DNA of 64,000 nucleotides from Planctomycetaceae bacterium (GTDB lineage: Bacteria > Planctomycetota > Planctomycetia > Planctomycetales > Planctomycetaceae), in the NCBI GenBank assembly GCA_018699955.1, contig JABISG010000075.1, forward strand, positions 1 to 64,000. The letters run 5' to 3'. The translations under genes were made by a program, and so were the position numbers. Under the pieces are notes generated by a model. The model was given only the letters and a program-made list of their open reading frames with translations. It made no database searches and was not told the origin of the DNA. Within the stretch, counting starts at the first letter, position 1. Every line of letters starts with the position of its first letter. Positions 1,140-31,138 of the stretch are shown piece after piece.

Positions 1140-2420
1140 TTACAGCGACCAGCCGTCTGCCAATGTTTTTCCTTTGGGGACGACGATCACGCCGTCGCGA
1201 ATGACGACATCGCCGTGGTCCGCATCCTGCGACGTGTCGGTATCGATTCGCACGTTCTGGCCGATGCGGCAGTTCTTGTCGATGATCGCTCCGTCGATCA
1301 CAGTACCCGCACCAATGCCGACGTTTGGCCGTCCTTGGGTACGATTCTCGGCCAATTGATCGGGCCGCTCGTAGTAGTCGTTGCCCATCAGGACCGAATT
1401 GCGAATCGTCACGTTTTCTCCGATGTGACAACGGAGTCCAATGACGCTGTTTTCGATGACCGTACCCGCGCCAATCACGCAGCCATCGGCGACCATGCTG
1501 AGAGAGACCCGCGCGTCTTCGACGCGTGTGGGCGGCAGGAATCGCGGACGGCTGTAAACTGGTGCGTCTTCAACAACAAATTCAAACGGCGGTGCCACCC
1601 CGGCCAACGCGATGTTCGCATCATAAAATGCTTTGATTGTCCCGATGTCTTCCCAGTAGCCGTCGAACAATTGCACCTGCACTTTGCGGGTATCGATTGC
1701 CATCGGAAAGATCTCGCGGCCGAAATCTTCAGCATCGTTTTCCCGCAGCATTTCGACCAGCGTATCGCGATTGAACAGGTAAATGCCCATGCTCGCCAGG
1801 CAATCGCGACCGTTGCTTTGAATGCCCTGGGCGTCGATCCAGGCAGGGTCGGTTCGCACTTCGGCGAGTTCTTCTTCCGTTTGCGGTTTTTCCTTGAAGC
1901 CGACAACGCGGCCGGTATCGTCCAACTGCATAATGCCGAACGACGAAGCCGCCTGCGAGTGCATGGGGACGCCGCCAATTGTCACGTCGGCATCCGCTTC
2001 CTGATGCGTGCGGAGCATCTCTTGAAAGTCCATCCGGTACAACTGATCGCCGGAAAGAATCAGCACGTAATCGACGCCGTACTGCTCGACGTATCGAAGT
2101 TGCTTACGGACGGCGTCGGCAGTTCCCTGATACCAGTCCGTGCTTTCTATCGTCTGTTCGGCGGCGAGAATCCCCGCGAAGCCGCCATCGAAATGGTCGA
2201 ACTGATAGGTTTGCCGAATGTGGCGATGCAAACTGACCGAGTTGAACTGCGTGAGCAGAAAGATGCGGTTGATGCCACTGTTCAGGCAGTTCGAAATCGG
2301 GATGTCGATCAACCGGTATTTGCCGGCGAGCGGAACAGCCGGTTTGGAACGGAACTGCGTCAGCGGGTTCAGTCGGGTTCCCTTGCCGCCGCCGAGAACG
2401 AAGCAGACGAGATTGCGCAT
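1140..2420 (-). CDS. glgC: Glucose-1-phosphate adenylyltransferase (ADP-glucose pyrophosphorylase)
   Basis: GlgC makes ADP-glucose from ATP and glucose-1-phosphate, the committed step of glycogen synthesis. The N-terminal nucleotidyltransferase signature FVLGGGKGTRLNPLT is followed by RSKPAVPLAGKYRLIDIPISNC and by the catalytic-domain motif SGDQLYRMD. The C-terminal third shows left-handed beta-helix hexapeptide repeats (VIGAGTVIENSVIG, IGAGTVIDGAIIDKNCRIG). The chosen ATG gives 426 residues, close to the usual 420-440. A TTG at 2465 would add 15 residues that are not typical of the family. The gene lies between mch and thrS on the same strand but is separated from thrS by a palindromic repeat, so it is probably its own transcription unit. 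Confidence 0.93.
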   Translation of the reverse strand: MRNLVCFVLGGGKGTRLNPLTQFRSKPAVPLAGKYRLIDIPISNCLNSGINRIFLLTQFNSVSLHRHIRQTYQFDHFDGGFAGILAAEQTIESTDWYQGTADAVRKQLRYVEQYGVDYVLILSGDQLYRMDFQEMLRTHQEADADVTIGGVPMHSQAASSFGIMQLDDTGRVVGFKEKPQTEEELAEVRTDPAWIDAQGIQSNGRDCLASMGIYLFNRDTLVEMLRENDAEDFGREIFPMAIDTRKVQVQLFDGYWEDIGTIKAFYDANIALAGVAPPFEFVVEDAPVYSRPRFLPPTRVEDARVSLSMVADGCVIGAGTVIENSVIGLRCHIGENVTIRNSVLMGNDYYERPDQLAENRTQGRPNVGIGAGTVIDGAIIDKNCRIGQNVRIDTDTSQDADHGDVVIRDGVIVVPKGKTLADGWSL

Positions 2421-8096: not shown

Positions 8097-8214
8097 GCGT
8101 CGAGGGTAATTGGGCGCACCTCTCTTTGTGTCTATAATACTGATGCTGGGTATGCGGTGCCGGCCATGAGACTCGATGTCGGTTCTGCATGGTGACTCAA
8201 ACGAAAGTAATCTG

Positions 8215-9438
8215 ATGTACTTCAAAGTTAGAGCCGTCGCGGCTCTTGCACTGACTCTGTCAATTGTTGCAGGCGTTTGCCAAGCCGATCCGGGAACGCC
8301 GGCGCAACAGTACTCTGCGCTTCTCAAAGAATACCGACCCGTGAGCGCCGGTATGCGGAAGGCCAAGACCGATCTGGAACGCAAGACAGCCGTCGCGCAG
8401 ATCGGTGCATATGCGCCGAGATTCTTGGAGCTGGCTAAAAAATATTCCAAAGATCCGATTGCTCTGACCGCTCTGAAACAGGCGGTCCAGGCCGTGGGGA
8501 CTGCAGATTCGGCCGCACAGATCACCTGGGAAACCAATCGCTCGGAATTCCCGGTGAGAGTTCGCGACGATGCGGCCGCAAATACGGTCGCACTTGTGCT
8601 ACGTGATCGTCTCACGAGTGACAAGATCAACCCGATTCTCGACCGGATGCGGTACGGTTACCGGATGGAATATGCAAAGTGTTTGCGCACCGTTCTGGAG
8701 AAGAACCCCCATCGGGACGTCCAGGCGATGGCCTGCCTTTCGTTGGCTCAGTTTCTCAACGACCGCTTGCGGATGCTTCGGCTCACCGAAGATCGCCCGG
8801 AATTGGCCAAACAATATGCGGCCGTCTTCGGCAAGAACTACCTGCCGCAACTCCAACGAATCGGGCAAGCCAAACTTGCCGTGCAAGTCGAAACCTTATT
8901 CGAGTGGGCCGCCGAAGATTACGGTGACGTGAAGATTCGCGTTGGTACGGTGGGCGAACGGGCCAAGTCGGAGTTGTACAACATCCGTCATCTCTCGGTC
9001 GGTAAGGTGGCACCGAATATGGCAGGCAAAGATCAGGACGGCAAGCAGTTCCAGTTGAGCGACTATCGCGGCAAGGTGGTGTTGCTCTATTTCTGGAGCG
9101 AATTCTGACTCACCTGACGGACCACATGGTCACACGGGCGGTCGCTCGTTACGAATTTGAAAGACAAGCCGTTCGCCCTCGTCGGCGTTAATTCCTGGCC
9201 CCACGAACCGGGTGAACTCAAGAAAGTGATGACCAAAGAGAAGCTCAATTGGCGATCGTTCGACGGCGACGATGCCATCAACCGCCAATGGAATTCCCTC
9301 GCCACACCGGCGTTCTACATCGTCGATCACACCGGGACGATTCGGCGCAAGTGGGTGGGAAAGCCGGGCGAGAAGCCCATCGACGCTGCCCTGGAAAAAC
9401 TGATTCGAGTGGCGGAAGAAGCGGCGTCAACCCGATAA
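8215..9438 (+). CDS. Probable thioredoxin-like (TlpA/redoxin) selenoprotein with a UxxU motif
   Basis: Read through two in-frame TGA codons (9106-9108 and 9115-9117), this gene gives a 407-residue secreted protein. It has a signal peptide (MYFKVRAVAALALTLSIVAG), a helical region to about residue 270, and a redoxin domain. The domain begins VGKVAPNMAGKDQDGKQF, continues with GKVVLLYFWSEF, then TGA-Leu-Thr-TGA, and carries on in the same frame with RTTWSHGRSLVTNLKDKPF and ALVGVNSW, then TPAFYIVDHTGTIRRKW. In TlpA-like relatives the two TGA positions are the redox cysteines of CxxC (residues 298 and 301 here). The downstream sequence is fully domain-like with no shift. Selenocysteine at both positions explains this best. 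The alternative is a pseudogene with two stop mutations at exactly those codons. Sec machinery was not found in the window. Confidence 0.75.
9106..9148 (+). promoter_or_regulatory. Possible recoding region: two TGA codons with a downstream hairpin
   Basis: TGA lies at 9106-9108 and 9115-9117. GACC-ACAT-GGTC at 9120-9131 can pair as a small hairpin, and GGUC falls 23-26 nt from the first TGA. That is close to where the loop GGUC lies in the E. coli fdhF SECIS. I could not find a long, convincing stem by eye, so the SECIS assignment is weak. Confidence 0.35.
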
Positions 9439-15799: not shown

Positions 15800-22441
<6,642 letters not shown>

Positions 22442-22628: not shown

Positions 22629-22982
<354 letters not shown>

Positions 22983-22985
22983 CTC

Positions 22986-28073: not shown

Positions 28074-28145
28074 GGGCTGGTAGCTGAGATGGTTTAGCGG
28101 CGGTTTGAAGAACCGCAGACGAGGATTCGAGCGCCTCCCGGCCCA
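28074..28145 (+). tRNA. tRNA-Phe (GAA)
   Basis: Acceptor GGGCTGG pairs with CCGGCCC; the anticodon arm is GCGGT-TTGAAGA-ACCGC with GAA at 28107-28109. The T-stem is GAGGA/GCCTC with an A-G mismatch where the conserved G53-C61 pair should be. Discriminator A, no encoded CCA. First gene of the array. Confidence 0.85.
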
Positions 28146-28216
28146 CTTGCAACGGAACCGACCGCCTTCTGCGCGCGGTTGCTTCCGGAGTTCCTTGGCA
28201 ATTTGAATGACCAATT

Positions 28217-28287
28217 GCGCCCATGATGTAGCGGCAGCCTACTGCCTTGCCATGGCGGAAGTGCGGGTTCGACTCCCGCTGGGCGCT
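28217..28287 (+). tRNA. tRNA-Gly (GCC)
   Basis: Acceptor GCGCCCA/TGGGCGC; anticodon arm CTGCC-TTGCCAT-GGCGG with GCC at 28249-28251; T-arm GCGGG-TTCGACT-CCCGC; discriminator T, as in bacterial Gly tRNAs. The D-arm is irregular (TAG-CTA only). Confidence 0.85.
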
Positions 28288-28308
28288 TCTTCTGAGAGGA
28301 AGAGACTT

Positions 28309-28367
28309 GGAGATAAGGAGAGGGGAGTGAATCAAGTTGCTCGCCCAGTCTCATCCTCTCCTTATTT
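28309..28367. repeat. Imperfect inverted repeat in the tRNA spacer
   Basis: GATAAGGAGAGG and CCTCTCCTTAT lie about 33 nt apart in the spacer between tRNA-Gly and tRNA-Asn and can form a long hairpin. A processing or structural role is possible. Confidence 0.5.
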
Positions 28368-28372
28368 CAGAA

Positions 28373-28447
28373 TGCGGTGGGTCCCGTGTTGGTACGGGAA
28401 GGCGGCTGTTAACCGTTTTGGCGCAGGTTCGATTCCTGCCACCGCAG
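28373..28447 (+). tRNA. tRNA-Asn (GTT)
   Basis: Acceptor TGCGGTG/CACCGCA; D-arm TCCC-GTGTTGGTAC-GGGA; anticodon arm GGCGG-CTGTTAA-CCGTT with GTT at 28408-28410; T-arm GCAGG-TTCGATT-CCTGC; discriminator G. Confidence 0.88.
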
Positions 28448-28459
28448 CTGTGCGATTAC

Positions 28460-28544
28460 GGAAGGGCAAGCCAACGGGCGATGGCACCCGCTTCGAAAGC
28501 GGACGAGCTTCACAGCCTTGAGGGTTCGACTCCCTCTCCTTCCG
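28460..28544 (+). tRNA. tRNA-Ser (CGA)
   Basis: A class II tRNA with a long variable arm. Acceptor GGAAGGG/TCCTTCC; anticodon loop TTCGAAA with CGA at 28494-28496; T-arm GAGGG-TTCGACT-CCCTC; discriminator G, as usual for Ser. Confidence 0.88.
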
Positions 28545-28553
28545 CTACTGAAG

Positions 28554-28653
28554 GTGTCCTTGACCGAGCGGCAAAGGTGCCGGACTTCCGGGCACCGATT
28601 GGCCGAAAGGCCAGATTGGTCCGGCGAGGCGGGTTCGACTCCCGCAGGACACT
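28554..28653 (+). tRNA. tRNA-like gene with a 28-nt insertion in the anticodon loop, probably tRNA-Gly (TCC)
   Basis: Acceptor GTGTCCT (28554-28560) pairs with AGGACAC (28646-28652). The D-arm is ACC-GAGCGGCAAA-GGT and the T-arm GCGGG-TTCGACT-CCCGC. The anticodon stem is CCGGA (28580-28584) with TCCGG (28620-28624), five perfect pairs, but they enclose 35 nt instead of 7. The 28 extra nt contain the hairpin TTGGCC-GAAA-GGCCAG. If the insert lies after position 37, the loop starts CTTCCG with anticodon TCC at 28587-28589. Discriminator T fits Gly. Removing the insert leaves a normal 72-nt tRNA. No bulge-helix-bulge was found. Reading it instead as one tRNA with a long variable arm gives no consistent anticodon stem. 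Confidence 0.7.
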
Positions 28654-28701
28654 CTTGGCCCATCGTAAAACCGTTCATCATTCCAAATTCATCATTCAAA
28701 T

Positions 28702-28776
28702 TGCGGGGTAGTTTCTGCTGGTAGAAATGTGTGGCTTTGAACCACGCGTCCGCAGGTTCGATTCCTGCCCCCGCAA
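28702..28776 (+). tRNA. tRNA-Gln (TTG)
   Basis: Acceptor TGCGGGG/CCCCGCA; anticodon arm TGTGG-CTTTGAA-CCACG with TTG at 28737-28739; T-arm GCAGG-TTCGATT-CCTGC; discriminator A. The D-stem is TTTC/GAAA. Confidence 0.88.
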
Positions 28777-28805
28777 CTGACAGAGAAAACGGCAACAACA
28801 ACTAA

Positions 28806-28880
28806 TGCGGTGGGGCCTGTGCTGGTACGGGCTGGCGGCTCTGAACCGTTGTGACGTGGGTTCGATTCCTACCACCGCAA
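28806..28880 (+). tRNA. tRNA-Gln (CTG)
   Basis: Acceptor TGCGGTG/CACCGCA; anticodon arm GGCGG-CTCTGAA-CCGTT with CTG at 28841-28843; T-arm GTGGG-TTCGATT-CCTAC; discriminator A. Its backbone is close to the tRNA-Asn in this array, which suggests duplication and anticodon change. Confidence 0.87.
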
Positions 28881-28969
28881 CTGGAAGCGACGAAGGCGGA
28901 GAGACAAGGACAGAAAAGATTCACGCGAACCATTTCTTCCGCTTTTGTCTCTCGACTCTCAACTACCAA

Positions 28970-29038
28970 CGCGGGTGGGCCAGTGCCCATCGGAGTTTCA
29001 TACGCTCTGAACGCCGGGTGCGACACCCGGACCCGCAA
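28970..29038 (+). tRNA. tRNA-Met-like (CAT), minimal D-arm
   Basis: CGCGGGT pairs with ACCCGCA except for a C1-A72 mismatch, which is an initiator-tRNA hallmark. The D-arm is only GGGC-CAGT-GCCC, without the usual GG of the D-loop. The anticodon arm is GGAGT-TTCATAC-GCTCT with CAT at 28999-29001. The T-loop TGCGACA has G at position 55. Total length is 69 nt. It lacks the three G-C pairs of initiator anticodon stems, so initiator identity is doubtful. Confidence 0.65.
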
Positions 29039-29044
29039 TTTTCC

Positions 29045-29120
29045 GGCCAGGTACGCAAACAGGCAAAGCGGTCACGTTGAGGGCGTGGCGGTTTTGTGGG
29101 TTCGACTCCCACTCTGGTCA
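29045..29120 (+). tRNA. tRNA with GAG anticodon (Leu), short variable arm
   Basis: Acceptor GGCCAGG/TCTGGTC; D-stem CGC/GCG; anticodon arm TCACG-TTGAGGG-CGTGG with GAG at 29079-29081; T-arm GTGGG-TTCGACT-CCCAC; discriminator A. The variable region is only 7 nt (CGGTTTT), whereas bacterial Leu tRNAs are class II. Confidence 0.75.
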
Positions 29121-29161
29121 ATTCAAAAGCGGAATGCGGAACGAGGAGTGCAGCGTGGAAA

Positions 29162-29208
29162 CTACCGCCCTGCGCTCGGCTGACTTGGGTCAGCCGTGCT
29201 CGGTTGCT
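29162..29208 (+). repeat. CTACCGCCCTGCGCTCGGCTGA repeat, copy 1
   Basis: This 47-nt element centres on the hairpin GGCTGAC-TTGG-GTCAGCC (29178-29195). It runs up to the first bases of the tRNA-Val gene. A second copy (30800-30847) forms the middle of a tRNA-like gene. Confidence 0.85.
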
Positions 29209-29278
29209 TCCCGTGGTCCAACGGCGACGACACCTGCGTGACATGCAGGAGACGATGGTTCGATTCCATCCGGGATCA
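29207..29278 (+). tRNA. tRNA-Val (GAC), defective acceptor
   Basis: Anticodon arm CCTGC-GTGACAT-GCAGG with GAC at 29240-29242; T-arm GATGG-TTCGATT-CCATC; discriminator A. The acceptor 5' strand CTTCCCG faces CGGGATC, leaving C1-C72 and T2-T71 mismatches. The first two bases belong to the abutting repeat, which may have replaced the original GA. Confidence 0.7.
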
Positions 29279-29311
29279 CTGAAGAGGGCTGAGAGACCAG
29301 AGACACAACAT

Positions 29312-29383
29312 GGGCCTGCATGCCGATGGTGGCGACTGATCCTTGCAAGATCGGTGCGATGGGTTCGACTCCCATCAGGTCCA
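29312..29383 (+). tRNA. tRNA-Ala (TGC)
   Basis: Acceptor GGGCCTG/CAGGTCC; D-arm TGCC-GATGGT-GGCG; anticodon arm TGATC-CTTGCAA-GATCG with TGC at 29344-29346; T-arm GATGG-GTTCGAC-style stem GATGGG/CCCATC; discriminator A. Base pair 3-70 is G-T, the classic Ala identity element. Confidence 0.88.
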
Positions 29384-29391
29384 CTCGACCC

Positions 29392-29478
29392 GGAAGGTAA
29401 CCGAATTGGCTTAGGAGACTGGTTGCTAACCAGTTGCCCTGGAAACGGGGTTGGCGGGTTCGATTCCCCCACTTTCCG
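29392..29478 (+). tRNA. tRNA-Ser (GCT)
   Basis: Class II. Acceptor GGAAGGT/ACTTTCC; anticodon arm ACTGG-TTGCTAA-CCAGT with GCT at 29425-29427; long variable arm CCCTGGAAACGGGG; T-arm with one C-C mismatch; discriminator G. Confidence 0.88.
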
Positions 29479-29484
29479 CTGACT

Positions 29485-29556
29485 GGCCTGATGGTGAAAA
29501 GGAAATCATCCCGCGCTTCTAACGCGGTGTTCCGGGTTCGAATCCTGGTCGGGCTA
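29485..29556 (+). tRNA. tRNA-Arg (TCT)
   Basis: Acceptor GGCCTGA/TCGGGCT; D-arm GTGA-AAAGGAAA-TCAT; anticodon arm CCGCG-CTTCTAA-CGCGG with TCT at 29518-29520; T-arm CCGGG-TTCGAAT-CCTGG; discriminator A. Confidence 0.9.
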
Positions 29557-29572
29557 CTGTGAAAACAAGAAC

Positions 29573-29659
29573 GGAAGGGCCACCCGATTGGCGACGGGAA
29601 CCGGTTGGAAGCCGGTCGAGTACAAGCGTGCCTTGCGGGTTCGACTCCCGCTCCTTCCG
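29573..29659 (+). tRNA. tRNA-Ser (GGA)
   Basis: Class II. Acceptor GGAAGGG/TCCTTCC; anticodon arm ACCGG-TTGGAAG-CCGGT with GGA at 29607-29609; long variable arm; T-arm GCGGG-TTCGACT-CCCGC; discriminator G. Confidence 0.9.
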
Positions 29660-29661
29660 CT

Positions 29662-29737
29662 GTGACCGGGTCCGGTGCTGGTTTCCGGAGACAGACTGTG
29701 AATCTGTTCGGCGGCGGTTCGATTCCGCTCGGTCACC
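29662..29737 (+). tRNA. tRNA-His (GTG)
   Basis: Acceptor GTGACCG/CGGTCAC with discriminator C, as expected for His; anticodon arm ACAGA-CTGTGAA-TCTGT with GTG at 29698-29700; T-arm GGCGG-TTCGATT-CCGCT. The base before position 1 is T, so the G-1 normally encoded in bacterial tRNA-His is absent. Confidence 0.87.
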
Positions 29738-29767
29738 CTGTATGGGTTTTCAAATTGGAGAAAAGTG

Positions 29768-30361
29768 ATGGTCGCTGCGGTATTGGAGCGACCCACGTTG
29801 GTGCTGAATCGCAACTGGCAGCCGGTGGGTGTTGTCCCGGTGACCAAGGCGCTGACGAAGGCGTGGAACGACACGGCTCGGATCGTCGATCCGGCCGATT
29901 ACCAGCAGCACACGTGGGACAACTGGATGCAAATTCCGGCCGAAGGCGAGCTGTTCATTCAGACGCGTTTCACCCGACTGCGGGTGCCGGAAGTGATCAC
30001 GCTGACAAATTACGACCGCCTGCCGACCAACTCGGTCACATTCAGTCGGCGGAACGTTTTCAAGCGTGACCGGTTCACGTGTCAGTATTGCGGAGTTCAA
30101 CCGGGCAGCGACGAATTGACGATCGACCACGTTGTGCCGCGTGCGCAGGGGGGAACATCAACCTGGAAGAACTGTGTGTTGGCGTGCATCGCGTGCAACG
30201 GCAGAAAGGCCGACCGGACCCCGCAGCAGGCAAAGATGCCATTGCGGTCACAGCCGGAACGACCACTCTGGCGACCGTTGTATTCGTCACGCGGAGTACG
30301 AATTGAAAGCTGGTCACGTTTCGTCAGCGAAAGCTACTGGAACGTGGAATTGAAGGAATAG
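29768..30361 (+). CDS. HNH endonuclease inside the tRNA array
   Basis: The ATG at 29768 follows GGAG and gives 197 residues. The N-terminal half (VLNRNWQPVGVVPVTKAL) is a domain commonly fused to HNH nucleases in this group. The HNH motif lies at about 100-150: CQYCGVQP, LTIDHVVPRAQGG, NCVLACIACNGRKADRTP, with two CxxC pairs for structural zinc and His/Asn catalytic residues. Sitting 31 nt after tRNA-His and about 80 nt before tRNA-Trp on the same strand, it is probably co-transcribed with the tRNAs. It may act in DNA processing, recombination of the array, or RNA cleavage. The family is also common outside such arrays, so the link is circumstantial. Confidence 0.88.
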   Translation: MVAAVLERPTLVLNRNWQPVGVVPVTKALTKAWNDTARIVDPADYQQHTWDNWMQIPAEGELFIQTRFTRLRVPEVITLTNYDRLPTNSVTFSRRNVFKRDRFTCQYCGVQPGSDELTIDHVVPRAQGGTSTWKNCVLACIACNGRKADRTPQQAKMPLRSQPERPLWRPLYSSRGVRIESWSRFVSESYWNVELKE

Positions 30362-30428
30362 CTTTCAGCAATCAGCTGTCAGCGATCAGCTCATCTGGCT
30401 GAACGCTGATGGCTGAAAGCTGATCGCG
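30362..30428. repeat. CTTTCAGC/GCTGAAAG hairpin repeat
   Basis: GCTTTCAGC at the left and GCTGAAAGC at the right bracket several TCAGC and GCTGA units, forming a long imperfect hairpin just after the HNH gene. It may terminate or stabilise the HNH transcript. Confidence 0.65.
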
Positions 30429-30441
30429 ACAACATACAAAT

Positions 30442-30512
30442 ACGTCCGTGGTGCAACAGCAGCATGACCGGTTCCAACCCGGTAGATCAGGGTGCGAATC
30501 CTTGCGGACGTG
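30442..30512 (+). tRNA. tRNA-Trp (CCA), G55 T-loop
   Basis: Acceptor ACGTCCG/CGGACGT; anticodon arm ACCGG-TTCCAAC-CCGGT with CCA at 30474-30476; T-stem CAGGG/CCTTG with loop TGCGAAT, i.e. G instead of T at position 55; discriminator G, as usual for Trp. Confidence 0.85.
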
Positions 30513-30534
30513 CTTTCTAACAATTCAACCAATT

Positions 30535-30607
30535 GCCGATGTGGCCGAAACAGAAAGGCGCCTGTCTTGTAAACAGGATCATGCTGGTGCGAATCCAGTC
30601 GTCGGCT
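30535..30607 (+). tRNA. tRNA-Thr (TGT), G55 T-loop
   Basis: Acceptor GCCGATG/CGTCGGC; anticodon arm CCTGT-CTTGTAA-ACAGG with TGT at 30568-30570; T-stem GCTGG/CCAGT with loop TGCGAAT; discriminator T. Confidence 0.87.
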
Positions 30608-30616
30608 CTTTTGATT

Positions 30617-30687
30617 GCCTTGCGGGTGTGACGGATGCATGACAGTCTTCGAAACTGTCGGACGAGGTTCGACTCCTCGGCGAGGTA
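30617..30687 (+). tRNA. tRNA-Arg (TCG)
   Basis: Acceptor GCCTTGC/GCGAGGT; anticodon arm ACAGT-CTTCGAA-ACTGT with TCG at 30649-30651; T-arm CGAGG-TTCGACT-CCTCG; discriminator A. Confidence 0.88.
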
Positions 30688-30714
30688 CTCTGAGAGTCAA
30701 GACCGATTCAACAT

Positions 30715-30786
30715 GGCCCGTGAGTGTGCTGGATCGCACGTCAGCTTGCGAAGCTGTTAGACCAGGTTCGACTCCTGGACGGGCTA
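30715..30786 (+). tRNA. tRNA-Arg (GCG)
   Basis: Acceptor GGCCCGT/ACGGGCT; anticodon arm CAGC-TTGCGAA-GCTG with GCG at 30748-30750 (outer T-T mismatch); T-arm CCAGG-TTCGACT-CCTGG; discriminator A. Bacteria normally read CGN with ACG deaminated by TadA, so a genomic GCG anticodon is unusual. Confidence 0.83.
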
Positions 30787-30792
30787 CTTGAT

Positions 30793-30869
30793 GTTCTCGC
30801 TACCGCCCTGCGCTCGGCTGATTTTGGGTCAGCCGTGCTCGGTTGCTGGTTCGATTCCTGGCGAGGACA
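30793..30869 (+). tRNA. tRNA-like chimera: acceptor and T-arm around a repeat element
   Basis: Acceptor GTTCTCG (30793-30799) pairs perfectly with CGAGGAC (30862-30868), next to a weak T-arm GCTGG-TTCGATT-CCTGG with two mismatches. Everything between 30800 and 30847 is a copy of the repeat at 29162-29208. Its hairpin GGCTGA-TTTTGGG-TCAGCC stands where the anticodon arm should be, with a 7-nt loop whose centre reads TTG (30824-30826). Overall length of 77 nt is tRNA-like. It may be a broken gene or a recruited replacement. Confidence 0.6.
30800..30847 (+). repeat. CTACCGCCCTGCGCTCGGCTGA repeat, copy 2
   Basis: This element matches copy 1 over 48 nt except for the hairpin centre. Copy 1 reads CTTGGG between the GGCTGA/TCAGCC arms and this copy reads TTTTGGG, giving a 7-nt loop. 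It forms the centre of the tRNA-like gene at 30793-30869. Confidence 0.85.
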
Positions 30870-30876
30870 TTCAAAC

Positions 30877-30948
30877 GACACCGATGTTCGATGGCCGGGC
30901 GGCTGCCTGCAAAGCAGTTCTCAGTGGGTTCGATTCCCACCGGTGTCT
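30877..30948 (+). tRNA. tRNA-Cys (GCA)
   Basis: Acceptor GACACCG/CGGTGTC; anticodon arm GCTGC-CTGCAAA-GCAGT with GCA at 30909-30911; T-arm GTGGG-TTCGATT-CCCAC; discriminator T, the main Cys identity base. Last gene of the array. The 190 nt to the convergent cytochrome gene hold no feature I recognise. Confidence 0.9.
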
Positions 30949-31138
30949 CTTTGTGAAATCAGTGACGAAAACTGAAGGAGGCGTTGATCTTGTCCGGCCA
31001 GCGGCGCACGACTGCTCACCCGGCACTCTGCAGCGACGCGTGTGGTCGGCGAGCGCATCGTCTTCCAACGTTTTTTAATGGCAATGAACTCGTCCCGAAG
31101 CTGTGGAGCTTGGGAACAAGTTGAAACACGGAAGTCAA

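Follow-up and report, generated by a model that had tools for sequence, protein, structure and literature searches.

Among the described systems closest to the locus analysed here is the SelL family, reportedly that of Shchedrina et al. (PNAS, 2007). SelL is reported to occur in fish, invertebrates and marine bacteria (PMC2397514, PMC3541580); two Sec residues are present together with one SECIS, the case described being that of a eukaryotic element (PMC3541580), and a diselenide has been reported (PMC2397514), in agreement with the preliminary description of our locus, which had named SelL as a UxxU family able to form this bond. In prokaryotes, UxxU has been catalogued for Prx-like thiol:disulfide oxidoreductases of pfam00578 (PMC9312934, PMC13188914) and, in the GOS survey, for Prx-like 2 (PMC2398784). 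Selenoproteins have also been reported in planctomycetes, without a UxxU motif in the part of that report considered here (PMC4807772). A literature search conducted mostly outside subscription journals returned no account of the clade presented below or of two close Sec codons sharing one bacterial SECIS.

The window, that is the whole stretch of 64,000 nucleotides of planctomycete DNA that was analysed, encodes what is on sequence grounds very probably a secreted thioredoxin-like protein with Sec at both catalytic positions, found mostly in planctomycete genomes. Its likeness to SelL, by description, lies in the motif alone: two Sec residues in the redox motif of a Prx- or thioredoxin-like protein, here ULTU. 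With the catalogued pfam00578 proteins it has in common the Pfam family, the two motif forms, the presence of one or two Sec and the prediction of a redox selenoprotein; the present clade differs, again compared by description, in having a TlpA/ResA-like domain and, N-terminal to it, an additional helical domain, and planctomycetes are mentioned in neither of the two reviews holding that catalogue (PMC9312934, PMC13188914). Prx-like 2 is likewise a bacterial Prx-like protein with UxxU but differs in its domain, which has weak pfam04592 similarity, and no pfam04592 match was found in the window protein. The ResA/TlpA/CcmG thiol-disulfide oxidoreductases are alike in fold and exported type; they differ by a Cys-Cys active site and show about 22% identity. 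UxxU as such is already known, and what appears to be new is a mainly planctomycete clade, with its N-terminal helical domain and the apparent use of one SECIS for two Sec codons.

On the forward strand, the frame running from the ATG at 8215 to the TAA at 9436-9438 contains two internal stops, TGA at codon 298 and TGA at codon 301 (Table 1). The pair is spaced by CTC ACC (Leu-Thr) and immediately preceded by GKVVLLYFWSEF; with UGA read as Sec, the translation around the motif is ...DYRGKVVLLYFWSEF-U-L-T-U-RTTWSHGRSLVTNLKDKPFALVGVNS... No internal TAA or TAG and no frameshift was found within the frame 8215-9438. The chance that two random stops would hit both catalytic positions among 407 codons is about 1 in 83,000. 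The preliminary description had placed the gene correctly, with an unshifted frame, only two TGA codons and the Leu-Thr spacer, and its claim of some 100 redoxin-like codons downstream is borne out by 106 open codons 3' of the pair and by one AhpC-TSA domain that spans both TGA codons. An alternative in-frame ATG is present at 8176; the start at 8215 is favoured because the probable signal peptide begins there and because homologues start at about this position.

Table 1. Positions in the window of the predicted selenoprotein gene and of its features.
Feature	Position	Strand	Remarks
Predicted selenoprotein gene	8215..9438	+	Ends in TAA; 407 aa if both UGA are read as Sec; two TGA also in the best relatives
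UGA codon 1 (UGA1), predicted Sec298	9106..9108	+	First CxxC-like position; U throughout the UxxU and UxxC homologues
UGA codon 2 (UGA2), predicted Sec301	9115..9117	+	Second motif position; TGA in 10/10 members of the UxxU clade
Putative bacterial SECIS	9133..9150	+	Stem 9134-9139/9144-9149, apical loop GGUC 9140-9143
Proximal hairpin GACC-ACAT-GGTC	9120..9131	+	Between UGA2 and the putative SECIS; role uncertain
Probable signal peptide (Sec-type) MYFKVRAVAALALTLSIVAGVCQA	8215..8286	+	Visual assignment from the charged start, the hydrophobic core and the small residues where cleavage would occur
All-helical N-terminal domain, residues 25-259	8287..8991	+	AlphaFold2 model; no Pfam match for residues 1-255
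AhpC-TSA / thioredoxin-fold domain, residues 262-378	8998..9348	+	PF00578, Foldseek
Pro365 (ATPAF), place of the thioredoxin-fold cis-proline	9307..9309	+	Invariant in 24 homologues

Both TGA codons are located inside the regions matched by PF00578 (AhpC-TSA; 69.8 bits for a threshold of 26, E 2.6e-19) and by PF08534 (Redoxin; 52 bits for a threshold of 26.6, E 8.6e-14). The AlphaFold2 model (mean pLDDT 88.8, pTM 0.85) opens with a helix typical of a signal peptide, followed by a helical domain of ~235 residues and then by the C-terminal thioredoxin domain; homologues likewise begin with hydrophobic leaders. The top Foldseek matches were Bacillus ResA structures (4nmu/1st9, TM 0.83-0.91 by target length, rmsd 1.5-1.9), and in the predicted model both TGA positions are found at the start of the helix following the central strand, in a thioredoxin-like manner. 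No NCBIfam family was reached at its cut-off (ResA NF002854, 52.3 of 170 bits; TlpA, 38.5 of 230 bits). In TlpA/ResA-like homologues, each of the two TGA codons is matched exactly by a Cys, as had been proposed from the sequence of the window. A cis-proline has an established role in the thioredoxin fold, and the window protein has Pro at this place. The model confidently predicts a ResA/TlpA-like thioredoxin fold; by this fold and by analogy with SelL, the protein is likely an exported thiol/disulfide or peroxide-reducing enzyme that would act via a diselenide.

Within the same family, of which 170 genomes were searched, the best full-length relatives, G084 (65% identity) and G056 (49%), both carry ULTU. 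A wider scan, covering the genomes of about 85,000 species, revealed ULTU at four further loci (CALBIE010000538.1, JAQBVH010000310.1, JAJFFB010000018.1 and JACQFD010000023.1), the variants UPTU (JAKEEH010000213.1) and ULGU (JAKEET010000084.1), and a close relative from NIOZ-UU7 (L089, JACNKX010000074.1; 75% in the best segment) in which both TGA codons are kept and at least two frameshifts are present, which may result from sequencing error or from recent decay. Five of these seven records bear a Planctomycetota or Gemmataceae label and the other two that of Verrucomicrobiota groups; as all seven are MAGs, horizontal transfer and misbinning are both possible. Altogether ten UxxU loci were found, and no intact frame among them lacks just one of the two TGA codons; the same TGA pair, for which a search in related planctomycetes had been advised, is thus present in independent genomes at nine loci other than that of the window. 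In G048, a decayed UxxU remnant (L062, C173, about 1500-1870, minus strand) has lost its upstream part, carries frameshifts and is left with the second TGA alone; this remnant is an example of a true pseudogene in the UxxU family. No conserved gene neighbour was found across the UxxU loci, and neighbours gave no hint at a substrate or reductant.

UGPC or UPPC between the same flanks is found in a much larger set of homologues, and others carry CGPC, CPHC and similar motifs. The UGPC/UPPC redoxins, from Planctomycetota, Verrucomicrobiota and others, have in common with UxxU proteins the thioredoxin domain, the putative SECIS hairpin and its place, and the PHERSLV peptide. They differ by carrying one Sec, by a Trp before the motif (Phe, Tyr or Val in UxxU) and by Gly-Pro or Pro-Pro between the redox residues (Leu-Thr, Pro-Thr or Leu-Gly in UxxU); they possibly correspond to the catalogued 'Redoxin family protein, PF08534, UxxC'. 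The thioredoxin domain was used to build an IQ-TREE phylogeny, with the catalytic columns masked and with 45 UxxC and 27 CxxC rows beside the UxxU rows. The UxxU rows formed one clade with support of 100/100, and the UxxC and CxxC rows were mixed around it; the tree, in which most deep branches had weak support, fits a single origin of UxxU, which would have been from UxxC. Among the planctomycete sequences, the U-type genes L084, L086, L091, L094, L115 and L126 are labelled Verrucomicrobiota, Pseudomonadota or Myxococcota, and horizontal transfer or misbinning may account for these stray labels. The UxxC sister group, the monophyly of UxxU and the SECIS hairpin are additions to the preliminary description.

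The putative SECIS of the window has the sequence CACGGGC-GGUC-GCUCGUU (consensus CACGAGC-GGUC-GCUCGUG) and a stem of 6 bp. Its GGUC loop is 31 nt from UGA1 and 22 nt from UGA2, so that a single hairpin is in range of both codons, and the segment 9133-9150 conforms for both to the published bSECIS rules, which set an energy threshold of -7.5 kcal/mol (PMC13188914). The folding energy is -7.6 kcal/mol for 9133-9150, -7.0 for the bare 16-mer and -12.8 when the proximal hairpin is included; the window copy lacks the outermost pair and retains 6/7 pairs, and the energy of the bare stem is at the edge of the threshold. No Rfam entry matched this hairpin. The core CGGTCGCT was in register in 57/62 distinct U-containing homologues (10/10 for UxxU) vs 0/44 CxxC homologues (Fisher p 1.4e-24, ignoring relatedness), part of the set having been fetched with degenerate peptide patterns that cover the hairpin segment and favour the RSLV peptide but not specific codons. 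The codons CGG TCG CTC (Arg-Ser-Leu) are invariant in all 10 UxxU members, whereas variation is seen in the codons of conserved Val, Leu and Pro residues nearby, and the sole Cys homologue that keeps Arg-Ser-Leu encodes it otherwise, as CGT TCC CTG. Stem pairing reached 93%, compared to 43% at most in controls slid by 1-3 columns; two pairs had changed on both sides, stem covariation being limited because the core hardly varies. The proximal hairpin is less consistent: over 10 members, 77.5% of cells are paired and a single pair has changed on both sides.

The window was also scanned for TGA triplets followed by a hairpin with a GGUC loop and a stem of at least 6 bp located 16-37 nt downstream. 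Only the two TGA codons of the pair, out of 1853 triplets on both strands and in all frames, had such a hairpin in range. When a strict filter of -7.5 kcal/mol was applied to the bare hairpin, the scan missed the target (bare stem -7.0) and gave two unconvincing candidates. Three UGPC members (L123, L142 and L150) are devoid of the CGGTCGCT core, and their downstream region may fold into another hairpin.

The genes for Sec incorporation were searched for in the source genome, a 7.1-Mb draft of 173 contigs (95% complete, 0.8% contamination). SelA (507.7 bits, curated cut-off 267.9) and the adjoining SelB (323.7 bits, curated cut-off 242.25) are encoded on contig C139 and SelD (264.4 bits, curated cut-off 125) on contig C107, all without internal stops; the proposed check for selA, selB and selD thus found each gene present, intact and above its curated cut-off. 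In contrast, selC (tRNA-Sec) was not found in the draft assembly with Rfam RF01852, a pattern, the lineage covariance model R1 or the tRNA-Sec DNA of a relative; the best candidate, a 46-bit Rfam match, was rejected as a tRNA-Ser. The neighbour of selC in G084, secA, is located at C17:97842 of the window's genome and no tRNA is present beside it, so that synteny brings no confirmation to the idea of an assembly gap. Among 12 relatives of the same family that were searched, 8 have a tRNA-Sec (seven of them confirmed by ARAGORN), and all 8 carry a related U-type gene or remnant. It was not found in G056, G168, G111 and G105; genus-mates of the latter two (G109, G110 and G112) do carry it. The tRNA-Sec abuts a phage-type integrase gene (Pfam PF00589) in G084 (L067) and G109 (L072), it has an integrase-like frame as neighbour in G048 (L073), and it is cut by a contig end in G110. 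These observations suggest that selC is an integration site in this planctomycete family, and the integrase flanks, the contig-end cut and the genus-mates with selC make its loss from the draft assembly plausible. The missing selC is the weakest link of the Sec reading, which is otherwise supported, as the preliminary description had it, by selA/selB/selD, by the Cys positions of homologues and by the TGA pair elsewhere.

Two other redoxin-like genes of the same genome each contain one in-frame TGA, which occupies the first catalytic position, and probably encode further selenoproteins: G000:C9:6583-6795 (L027), with UPRC and a CTGGC-GGTC-GCCAG element about 35 nt past the TGA, and G000:C49:23673-24014 (L028), with UINC and a hairpin with a GUA loop 26 nt past the TGA. 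In the window itself, 19 tRNA genes, including many isoacceptors, are clustered on one strand within 2.9 kb (28074-30949). Degenerate tRNA gene clusters are reported from planctomycetes (PMC4807772). The window also contains a tmRNA (22629-22983) and, at 15800-22441, a frame of 2213 residues in which a protein kinase domain is accompanied by three stretches of the FGE-sulfatase (formylglycine-generating enzyme-like) type.

Selection was estimated on either side of the TGA pair by the Nei-Gojobori method, which gave rough dS values. Between UxxU members, dN was 0.2-0.5 upstream and 0.2-0.4 downstream of the pair, with synonymous sites near or beyond saturation; for the window and G084, the values were dN 0.23 and dS 1.96 upstream, and dN 0.22 and dS 0.90 downstream. 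Purifying selection is alike 5' and 3' of the pair, and the low dN relative to dS after the stops indicates that the downstream part is selected as protein.

These data bear on other readings of the locus. Firstly, UGA1 alone could be decoded as Sec via the hairpin, UGA2 being inefficient or decoded in a near-cognate manner so that most of the product would stop at codon 300 or have a different residue at the UGA2 position. The hairpin presumably is shaped for UGA1, since the spacing of 31 nt is the same in UxxC relatives. However, UGA2 is held in 10/10 members at dS near or above 1 with zero reversions to Cys, its spacing of 22 nt is well within the published range, and selection continues for ~100 codons past it; we consider this reading unlikely. 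Secondly, the UGA pair could mainly be a selenium-dependent switch, the regulated output without selenium being a product of 297 residues comprising the helical domain and an unfinished thioredoxin domain. The long upstream frame and its normal start make a truncated product possible, but selection is equally strong on the downstream part, and truncation inside the thioredoxin fold, just after a core beta strand, makes it unlikely that such a product would be stable; as an account of the pair, the switch is very improbable. Thirdly, decayed relatives such as the G048 remnant and the frameshifted NIOZ-UU7 copy do exist, and the window gene could be a pseudogene with two nonsense mutations. This was rejected on the integrity of its frame, which is otherwise undamaged, on the same two stops at nine further loci and on the low downstream dN/dS, the conserved SECIS and selA/B/D also standing against it, and we give it hardly any credence. 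Lastly, a UGA read as sense throughout the genome or by a suppressor tRNA, which nothing beyond the two in-frame TGA codons favours, was dismissed on stop usage as next to negligible: long ORFs of the window end in TGA more often than in any other stop (20/39, one being the split ORF 8215-9438 itself) and frames stay open past a TGA no more than past a TAA or TAG, which together argue against general recoding, several UxxU homologues themselves terminate in TGA, and none of the 19 window tRNAs has a TCA anticodon.

The explanation that we strongly favour is that of an exported ResA/TlpA-like oxidoreductase with a Sec298-Leu-Thr-Sec301 motif, a single SECIS for both UGA codons and UxxC ancestry. 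The single in-frame hairpin 9133-9150 would recruit a SelB-GTP-Sec-tRNA complex, which would insert Sec at each UGA. The UxxU clade would have arisen from a hairpin-bearing UxxC selenoprotein in which the second Cys codon was changed to UGA. In the periplasm, the two Sec residues would alternate between a diselenide and a pair of selenols, the protein acting as a thiol/disulfide reductase or as a peroxide-reducing enzyme. That one coding-region SECIS serves two Sec insertions 9 nt apart to yield an exported diselenide oxidoreductase, with no second SECIS having been built, seems to us reasonably probable.

Gene callers that treat TGA solely as a stop would split these mostly planctomycete genes in two. 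The bacterial SECIS is located in the coding sequence at a set distance after the UGA, which raises the question of whether one hairpin suffices for two UGA codons. UxxU proteins and their UxxC sisters with the same hairpin constitute a matched pair in which this question is directly testable, and the same pair allows one to ask what is gained by a diselenide over a selenenylsulfide.
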